In this document: in pieces, positions 34,810-36,629 of the stretch | Layout of the letters: each line of letters starts with the position of its first letter | How positions within the stretch are numbered: position 1 is the stretch's first letter | Translations under genes and position numbers: made by a program | The notes under the pieces: generated by a model | Told to the model about the DNA's origin: nothing | Database searches by the model: none | The model's input: the letters and a program-made list of their open reading frames with translations, nothing else | Origin: Paracoccaceae bacterium | Lineage (GTDB): Bacteria; Pseudomonadota; Alphaproteobacteria; Rhodobacterales; Rhodobacteraceae | DNA length: 36,629 bases | Assembly (NCBI GenBank): GCA_007131685.1 | Contig: SLQD01000203.1 | Coordinates: 1 to 36,629 of the forward strand | Reading direction: 5' to 3'

Positions 34810-35697
34810 CTAGATCAGCATGCGCCGCGGCTCCTCCATCAGCGCAGCGTAGTGCGTGAGAAAGCGCGCCGCGTCCGCACCGTTGATGACGCGGTGATCA
34901 TAGCTCAGATCGAGCGGGCAGATCGGCCGCGGCTGAAACGCCGCCCCGTCCCAGACCGGCTCGGTGCTGGTGCGGGTGAGGCCGAGAATGGCGAGCTCGG
35001 GCGGATTCACGATCGGCGTGAAGGCGCGGCCACCGAGGCCACCGAGATTCGAAATCGTCATCGAGGCGCCGCCCATCTCCGTGCCGCGCAGCTTTCGCGC
35101 CTGCGCGCGCCCGGCGAGATCGCCGATTTCGGCAGCGATGGCCCAGAGCCCCTTGCGGCCGGCATCGCGGATAACGGGCACCATGAGCCCCGCCGGCGTG
35201 TCCACGGCGATGCCGACATGGATGTAGTGCTTGAGCGTAAGCGTCTCGCCATCGGCGCTGAGCGAGGCGTTGAAGCGCGGGAAGGCCTGCAGGCAGCGCG
35301 TCAGCGCCTTGACATGAAACGCGAGCGCCGTGAGGCGCACGCCCCGCCCGACGGCCTCCTCGCGCAGGCGCGCGCGCAACGCCTCGACCGCGCCCATGTC
35401 GGCGCGGTCGTGATGGGTGACCTGCGGGATCACCGCACTCGCGGCCTGCAGGTTGTCGGCCGCGAGGCGCGCGATGCGGTCGGTGGCCTCCTGCGTGACG
35501 GGGCCGTGGACAGCGTGATCGACGTCCCAGTAGCGCGTCGAAGCGCCGGCGGCCGGCGCCGCGGCGCCGCCGGACAGGTGGCGATCGACATCCTCGCGCG
35601 CGAGCGTCTCGCGCCCGGTGCTGGCGGCGACGGCGGCGAGATCGACCCCCCTGTCGCCGGCATACTTGCGCACCGACGGACTTGCGACATAGCTCAT
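34810..35697 (-). CDS. 2-oxoacid dehydrogenase E2 acyltransferase lacking a lipoyl domain (peripheral-subunit-binding domain + catalytic domain)
   Basis: 295 aa; begins MSYVASPSVRKYAGDRGVDLAAVAASTGRETLAREDVDRHL (PSBD) and ends LDLSYDHRVINGADAARFLTHYAALMEEPRRMLI; SD GAGGGG. Confidence 0.9.
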   Translation of the reverse strand: MSYVASPSVRKYAGDRGVDLAAVAASTGRETLAREDVDRHLSGGAAAPAAGASTRYWDVDHAVHGPVTQEATDRIARLAADNLQAASAVIPQVTHHDRADMGAVEALRARLREEAVGRGVRLTALAFHVKALTRCLQAFPRFNASLSADGETLTLKHYIHVGIAVDTPAGLMVPVIRDAGRKGLWAIAAEIGDLAGRAQARKLRGTEMGGASMTISNLGGLGGRAFTPIVNPPELAILGLTRTSTEPVWDGAAFQPRPICPLDLSYDHRVINGADAARFLTHYAALMEEPRRMLI

Positions 35698-35894
35698 GGC
35701 GTTCCCCTCACCGGATGGTCGAGATGTGTTGCGTCTGCCGGAATGCGGGCCGGATCTCCCCTGCGCGGCGGGGCGCCGCCCGCGGTGGCGGCAGCGGGCC
35801 GCCCCGGCGCCGCCTGCGCGGCCGCTCCGGCACGGATGATCGATACGTTCAGGGCGGGCGCGCAAGCTCCGCAATGCAACGCGACGTGATGCAT
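35694..35894 (-). CDS. Small ORF (66 aa) in the E2 operon, unknown function
   Basis: MHHVALHCGACAPALNVSIIRAGAAAQAAPGRPAAATAGGAPPRRGDPARIPADATHLDHPVRGTP*; AAGGG SD 6 nt upstream; starts 12 nt after the upstream stop; stop overlaps the E2 start as ATGA. Confidence 0.5.
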   Translation of the reverse strand: MHHVALHCGACAPALNVSIIRAGAAAQAAPGRPAAATAGGAPPRRGDPARIPADATHLDHPVRGTP

Positions 35895-35905
35895 CGGGCA
35901 CCCTT

Positions 35906-36629
35906 TCACAGGAGCTGGCGCAGCGGATCGGCGAGGCGGCGCGCCACCCCGTCGAGGAGCGCGAGCGCCGCACCGTCGGACAGCGCGGCCGGCTCGCAGC
36001 TCAACTGCAGCGCCAGCATGTCCTCGCCACCGGCGGTGACGCTGAGCTCGATGCGCGCCGCTTGTGCGAGGCGCGCGCCGGTCAGCGGCGTGGCGGCGAG
36101 ATCGCGCACGCTGAGCGTGGCGGCGGCCTCCCCGTCGTCGTCGCCGGTCTGCGCGTCCGTGAGCGCACCGAACCCGGCGAGATCCGGATCGGTATAGAGC
36201 GCGGTGCCGTGCAGATCGCCCGAGCGGATGACCAGCGGCGCACCCGTGTCCTGCGCCGCGCGCAACGCCGCGGCGGCGAAGGCTGCGAGCACACCGGCGC
36301 GCGGCGGCGCAGCGCCCGTGTCGCCGCGCGCCCATTCGATCAGGTCGGACAACGGCGCGGCAGGGGCCGTGGCGGTGATTTCGCAGCGTGCCGCGGCCGG
36401 AGCCGCGGCCACGGCCTCGGTCTCGGTCTCGGGCGGGGCGTTGGCGAGGGTTTCGAGATCGGCCACATGGAAGGGCTGCGCCACGCCCATGCGCACCAGC
36501 CGCGACAGGTCGAGCCCGCGCTCGCGCGCCAGTCGCCGCGCCTTGGGCGAGGCCAGGATGCGGCCATCCGGCGCGGATGCGGGCGGGGTGGTGGCGGCGG
36601 GCCCGGGGAGGGGCGCGCCCGCCGCCTGC
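35906..36629 (-). CDS. E2-like protein with peripheral-subunit-binding domain and degenerate, shortened acyltransferase domain (N-terminus outside window)
   Basis: ...PASAPDGRILASPKARRLARERGLDLSRLVRMGVAQPFHVADLETL (PSBD) ... LALQLSCEPAALSDGAALALLDGVARRLADPLRQLL; Ala/Pro linker continues to the window edge. Confidence 0.7.
   Translation of the reverse strand, partial: QAAGAPLPGPAATTPPASAPDGRILASPKARRLARERGLDLSRLVRMGVAQPFHVADLETLANAPPETETEAVAAAPAAARCEITATAPAAPLSDLIEWARGDTGAAPPRAGVLAAFAAAALRAAQDTGAPLVIRSGDLHGTALYTDPDLAGFGALTDAQTGDDDGEAAATLSVRDLAATPLTGARLAQAARIELSVTAGGEDMLALQLSCEPAALSDGAALALLDGVARRLADPLRQLL

Follow-up and report, generated by a model that had tools for sequence, protein, structure and literature searches.

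A degenerate E2 with lipoyl domains in its orthologues and a lipoyl-less, active-type E2 point to a functionally split 2-oxoacid dehydrogenase E2 in bacteria

Introduction

In the textbook E2 of a 2-oxoacid dehydrogenase complex, the lipoyl swinging arm, the anchor for the peripheral subunits and the acyltransferase active site reside on a single chain. To our knowledge, E3-binding proteins (E3BP) and other dead E2 partners have so far been described as eukaryotic genes. A locus at the right end of a 36,629-nucleotide stretch of DNA from a Paracoccaceae bacterium (contig SLQD01000203.1; hereafter, the window) raises the question of whether these functions can be divided between two bacterial proteins. 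Two neighbouring genes encode E2-related chains, each with a peripheral-subunit-binding domain (PSBD); one of them, here called E2cat, retains the active-site motif of an acyltransferase, and the other, here called dE2, carries a degenerate segment at that place. A preliminary description of the window, made from its letters, had proposed that swinging arm and catalysis are located on two proteins and that the degenerate chain serves as a partner in the core. We examined these claims by comparing the domains, predicted folds, neighbourhood and distribution of the two genes.

Results

Two E2-related genes at the end of the window

The following features were assigned.

34810–35697, minus strand: E2cat, PSBD and active-type acyltransferase, lipoyl-less (Pfam matches; orthologous frames without lipoyl motif)
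34879–34899, minus strand: E2cat active-site motif DHRVING (identical to the Azotobacter vinelandii E2p motif)
35572–35685, minus strand: PSBD of E2cat (PF02817 match and alignment to Escherichia coli AceF)
35698–35905, minus strand: scar of a deleted aldehyde dehydrogenase (ALDH) gene (both ends align with the ALDH gene of the relative G001, interior gone)
35906–36628, minus strand: dE2, N-terminus missing at the contig end; PSBD and truncated, predicted inactive E2 domain (lipoyl part beyond the assembly, seen in orthologues)
35909–35932, minus strand: C-terminal tail ADPLRQLL of dE2, proposed docking knob (conservation; Arg follows the presence of E2cat)
35909–36385, minus strand: predicted relict E2 (CAT-fold) domain of dE2 (AlphaFold and Foldseek; missed by Pfam)
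35972–36001, minus strand: degenerate active-site segment SCEPAALSDG of dE2 (sequence; His-less catalytic-His column across the family)
36440–36559, minus strand: PSBD of dE2 (PF02817 match; three helices in the AlphaFold model)

The E2cat gene is complete in the window. Its product matched PF02817 at residues 5–28 and PF00198 across residues 68–294 (E = 5.8e-72), with DHRVINGAD intact, and aligned to E. coli AceF from the PSBD through the C-terminus. The Ser, His and Asn of its active site correspond in the alignment to Ser558, His610 and Asn614 of A. vinelandii E2p, a numbering that was counted along the alignment. No PF00364 match was observed in E2cat of the window or in its orthologue at locus L053, and the lipoyl motif was missing from 100 of 100 orthologous E2cat frames. 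In a quick tree, E2cat formed a single clade, sister to the AceF-type E2s; plasmid records annotate it as '2-oxo acid dehydrogenase subunit E2'. The preliminary description of this protein, namely a lipoyl-less chain that starts with its PSBD and keeps an Asn variant of the motif as found in active E2p, agrees with these matches in every part.

The gene for dE2 is cut by the contig end, which is also the right end of the window, so that its start is missing and its N-terminus is unreadable here. The remaining protein matched PF02817 at residues 24–44 (24.6 bits; cut-off, 23.7), and a Pfam search gave no PF00198 match, leaving approximately 160 residues after the PSBD unrecognised. The AlphaFold model of this protein (mean pLDDT of 89, from an alignment of 45 sequences) was compared with the PDB using Foldseek, which returned the E2 catalytic domains of PDH and OGDH (E approximately 1e-7) with TM-scores near 0.5; we read the modest TM-scores as a consequence of the query including the PSBD and linkers and of the loss of part of the domain. 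A second model, of dE2 from a genome without E2cat, led to the same E2-fold outcome. Sequence profiles, on the other hand, miss this domain: PF00198 matched 0 of 48 members of the dE2 family, a profile comparison of dE2 with E2cat aligned the PSBD alone and did not detect the relict domain, and a PDB profile search with dE2 yielded a very weak C-terminal match and nothing more. The identification of a relict E2 domain therefore rests on structure prediction and Foldseek, and the models show a predicted E2 fold that is hidden from Pfam.

At the position of DHRxx[DN]G, dE2 of the window has SCEPAALSDG, and a His was found in the catalytic-His column in approximately 1% of 110 dE2 relatives. Judged from these residues, the E2-like domain is presumably catalytically dead, in line with the degenerate C-terminus without catalytic His that had been noted after the PSBD. 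In relatives, both the lipoyl and the PSBD parts of dE2 are recognised by Pfam. Two lipoyl domains precede the PSBD in six close relatives (G001, G002, G004, G019, G024 and G029), and dE2 of other lineages has one; the N-terminal lipoyl domain that was to be looked for in the upstream protein is thus present in relatives, the window itself being cut. Since the lipoyl domains lie on dE2 of the relatives and none lies on E2cat, the proposed split of arm and catalysis between two proteins is well supported. In plasmid records and RefSeq, dE2 is listed merely as a 'biotin/lipoyl-containing protein'.

Frames of approximately 585–603 residues adjoining AceF-type E2s (L058:4714-6525, L060:5397-7166 and L061:4791-6548 (-)), which served as the dihydrolipoyl dehydrogenase reference, show an N-terminal match to the lipoyl part of dE2; they seem to be E3s with a lipoyl domain of their own.

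Operon layout and the scar of an ALDH gene

In relatives, the conserved gene order is M24-family protein, E1-alpha, E1-beta, dE2, ALDH and E2cat, with an SDR, a solute-binding-type protein and a ribose-type ABC importer on the far side of the operon. An E3 gene follows E2cat in some genomes and also adjoins the cluster on plasmid pGal_E78. A check for an AceE-like E1 and lpd in the same operon had been proposed: the E1 is of the alpha/beta type and not AceE, whereas an E3 gene does adjoin in several genomes, but only sometimes. The two E2 genes, described as adjacent, are so in the window, but the ALDH gene normally separates them. Within the 208-base gap of the window, the first bases and approximately the last 60 bases of the ALDH gene are kept (76% identical to G001), and approximately 1.3 kb of its middle is gone, which could be a true deletion or an assembly error; no close ALDH was found elsewhere in the source assembly (best, 48%). 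The ALDH gene is dispensable to the dE2–E2cat pair, because dE2 stands directly before E2cat without it in G344 and in Marinobacter loci.

The window is an entire contig (C42) of a fragmented source genome (269 contigs, 2.62 Mb), whose closest relatives among the search matches include Alkalilacustris brevis and Rhodobacteraceae assemblies. Contig ends or loss account for the absence of the E1 genes, the ALDH gene and the lipoyl part of dE2 from the window, and a search of the source assembly did not find the E1 genes of this operon (best matches, 24%). A lipoyl-type match on contig C198 was considered as the missing N-terminus of dE2 and rejected, as it resembles a biotin carboxyl carrier and lies next to a biotin-carboxylase-like frame. 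The other E2s found in the source genome are of the PDH and OGDH types only; a complete lipoyl-E2 elsewhere in the genome serving this complex, which would have spoken against a split, was accordingly not encountered.

The E1-alpha is closest to PDH E1-alpha models and structures, under all equivalog cut-offs, the N-terminus of dE2 scored highest to an AcoC-type model, and one SDR of the operon is similar to acetoin reductases. The neighbours (ribose-type ABC importer, SDRs, M24/DddP-like protein and SSADH-like ALDH) gave no clear answer as to the substrate. The operon is an accessory catabolic cluster, sometimes plasmid-borne, and distinct from the housekeeping PDH.

Two further proteins of the cluster were noted. 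The M24-family protein upstream of E1-alpha (L053:10887-12233(-) and orthologues) has the DMSP lyase DddP as its best NCBIfam model, with a score of 119 bits where the cut-off is 600, and its reaction may point to the pathway substrate. A protein of approximately 620 residues (L053:13070-14944(-) and orthologues) combines an N-terminal region of no known family with an SBP_bac_1 domain and gave no NCBIfam match; as it heads the operon, it may act in regulation, with a solute-binding part as sensor.

Distribution and one-way dependence

Using a family profile, we found full or near-full dE2 in approximately 45 of the 348 genomes sampled in the family. When GTDB contigs were scanned, 213 relatives were returned, a part of them perhaps through their PSBD only; among the best 80 of these 213 are Rhizobiales, Marinobacter, Salinisphaera and a bin that bears the label Acidobacteria. 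The split-E2 operon is present in Rhodobacteraceae, Rhizobiales, Marinobacter and Salinisphaera, and also on Phaeobacter plasmids, and the degenerate dE2 architecture is intact in more than 100 loci. For the pair compared between the window and G001, dN/dS was 0.20 for E2cat and approximately 0.39 for the relict domain of dE2, which indicates that both genes are under purifying selection. The degenerate chain thus appears as the conserved partner that had been suggested, and not as a decaying pseudogene.

E2cat was set apart by a profile search in which its members scored at least 366 bits (except for the contig-cut copies of G361), the next group consisting of E2s in longer frames at no more than 321 bits. 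It was detected in 38 of the 348 genomes, all 38 of which also gave a dE2 match; the E2cat copies of G131 and G361 are partial, and the dE2 match in G131 is a short stretch only. At the level of gene content, a one-way dependence of E2cat on dE2 is shown. However, dE2 is not strictly tied to E2cat, because five genomes (G018, G213, G187, G299 and G229) keep dE2 and E1 with no close E2cat anywhere in the genome. The E2s that remain in these five are PDH-type and OGDH-type, and there either dE2 works on a housekeeping core or the acyl transfer takes another route.

The full catabolic cluster is plasmid-borne in marine Rhodobacterales at L216 (pGal_E78), L217 (pDY25-A) and L218 (pSC52_2), one of these three plasmids being typed as conjugative, and plasmid location may lie behind the patchy spread of the cluster. 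The dE2 and ALDH genes are broken at L054 (G017), where they adjoin transposase-like and integrase-like frames, and at L131 (G351); the cluster is under loss in some lineages. In G361 (Tranquillimonas rosea), the same cluster was observed with identical scores at two contig ends (L119 and L120), which are probably one duplicated region split by assembly.

The C-terminal tail of dE2 follows the presence of E2cat

In E2 cores, the C-terminal helix is a knob that enters a socket of the facing trimer (PMC10415282). Both dE2 models, that of the window and that from the E2cat-less genome, are predicted to finish in a short C-terminal helix, and the tail has the family consensus EQPLRHLL (ADPLRQLL in the window). 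The mean frequency of the top residue in dE2 was 0.80 for the last eight residues, 0.77 for the PSBD and 0.47 for the domain between them. Among loci with E2cat, 88 of 92 have the Arg of the tail and four lack it; among those without E2cat, it occurs in 2 of 11, all with enough downstream sequence to judge the absence (Fisher's exact test, P = 1.4e-8, for a position picked after the tails were viewed). This P value overstates the evidence because the losses of the Arg amount, by our count, to approximately five independent events on the tree; the direction nevertheless repeats. Read from these alignments, the tail seems to fit E2cat and to be freed upon its loss, and we infer a physical docking of dE2 on E2cat. 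A hetero-oligomeric dE2–E2cat core is supported indirectly by the fold, the C-terminal tail and the co-occurrence of the two genes.

Discussion

We consider it probable that the two genes encode a functionally split E2, in which dE2 gives the lipoyl arms and docks on a core of E2cat, within an accessory alpha/beta-type 2-oxoacid (or acetoin-like) dehydrogenase. In this scheme, dE2 would supply the swinging arms together with a PSBD and a shortened E2 domain devoid of activity, and E2cat, with a second PSBD, would form the core by its live acyltransferase. The lipoyl arm of dE2 would be acylated by E1; the relict E2 domain, chiefly its PLRHLL knob, would hold dE2 at the E2cat core, where the acyl group, offered in trans, would be transferred to CoA; the arm would then be re-oxidised by an E3, operon-encoded or borrowed from PDH or OGDH, with E1 and E3 held by the two PSBDs. 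The core geometry, the division of E1 and E3 binding and the substrate are what we infer.

A competing explanation is that dE2 is mainly an E3BP-like adaptor that tethers E3 and lipoyl domains to any E2 core, with E2cat as an optional dedicated core and the PDH or OGDH core used where E2cat is missing. The persistence of dE2 and E1 beside PDH-type and OGDH-type E2s in the five genomes above is consistent with it, as are the altered tails of those lineages, from which the Arg is usually gone. However, dE2 has the only lipoyl domains of the operon in most genomes, which is more than the role of an E3 adaptor, no genome has E2cat without dE2, and the altered tails are no clear copy of the PDH or OGDH E2 tails. 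We regard this explanation as a serious contender that probably does not hold. Somewhat more doubtful, in our judgement, is a reading in which dE2 arose independently in bacteria as a counterpart of E3BP and serves as a docking module that can be retargeted: it would form a dedicated hetero-oligomeric core with E2cat, and in lineages where E2cat was repeatedly lost, a changed knob would let the accessory E1 use the housekeeping PDH or OGDH core.

Lipoate-binding carrier proteins are used by other pathways, and dE2 could in principle be a freely diffusing lipoyl carrier for E1, E2cat and E3, its relict domain being a vestige without a docking role. The E2 domain of OdhA can use lipoyl groups in trans (PMC10415282), and conservation is lower in the relict domain than in the PSBD, both of which such a carrier would accommodate; a mere vestige, however, should not retain its fold and a conserved tail over more than 100 loci, nor should its tail follow the presence of E2cat, and we hold this to be improbable. 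Decay of the upstream gene into a pseudogene, or a normal E2 altered by frameshift or misassembly, is rejected as highly improbable on conservation and dN/dS, since the frame is open, dN/dS is below 1 and the same architecture is intact in more than 100 other loci, despite the deleted ALDH gene next to it and the broken copies in G017 and G351.

A split E2 of this type has consequences beyond the window. It corrects annotation, as dE2, labelled in RefSeq by its lipoyl part, has an E2 domain unseen by Pfam; it places an arm-bearing, apparently dead chain and an armless, apparently live chain in many marine bacteria; and its operon offers a small genetic system for asking why there is an E3BP, how mixed cores form and whether a C-terminal knob governs the choice of partner. 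A search of the open-access literature, outside which most subscription journals lie, found eukaryotic E3BP and OdhA and no description of a split-E2 system; as far as that literature shows, this is a widespread and undescribed variant of the 2-oxoacid dehydrogenase E2.

Among known systems, eukaryotic E3BP (mammalian PDHX and fungal protein X) is a paralogue of E2 with a lipoyl domain, a PSBD and an inactive E2 domain that works beside an active E2, and fungal protein X has a truncated relict domain in which part of the E2 fold remains and the hydrophobic C-terminus is conserved (PMC10156792). By sequence and model, dE2 shares the order of lipoyl domain, PSBD and E2-homologous domain, the last presumably inactive, and its relict domain resembles that of fungal protein X in truncation, E2 fold and conserved C-terminus; in fungal protein X, an M2 helix, not found in dE2, binds E2. 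Divergence of the relict domain precludes its comparison by sequence with eukaryotic E3BP, and the best reading by analogy is that dE2 is a bacterial analogue of E3BP, with no membership of that family claimed. In contrast to E3BP systems, the active partner E2cat has no lipoyl domain at all, so that the split is complete, and the genes lie in a bacterial operon. Bacterial PSBDs are described as unselective for E1 or E3 (PMC10156792).

The AceF-type E2p of E. coli and of A. vinelandii, with its cubic core, is matched by E2cat in the alignment from PSBD to C-terminus, in Ser, His and Asn and in its sister position on the tree, whereas E2cat has lost the lipoyl domains and neighbours an alpha/beta E1 instead of AceE. 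The acetoin dehydrogenase complex (AcoABC) is similar in its accessory alpha/beta E1 and dedicated E2, the AcoC-type N-terminus of dE2, the acetoin-reductase-like SDR and the ALDH, and differs in that here E1-alpha is PDH-like and E2 is split. Actinobacterial OdhA/KGD, working with AceF, likewise has a lipoyl-less E2 acyltransferase domain that takes lipoyl groups in trans (PMC10415282); however, OdhA is an E1–E2 fusion whose donor AceF is an active E2, whereas here the donor would be a dead E2 and the alpha/beta E1 is separate. The dE2/E2cat pair combines traits of E3BP and OdhA: the live E2 is armless, and the dead E2 has all the arms.
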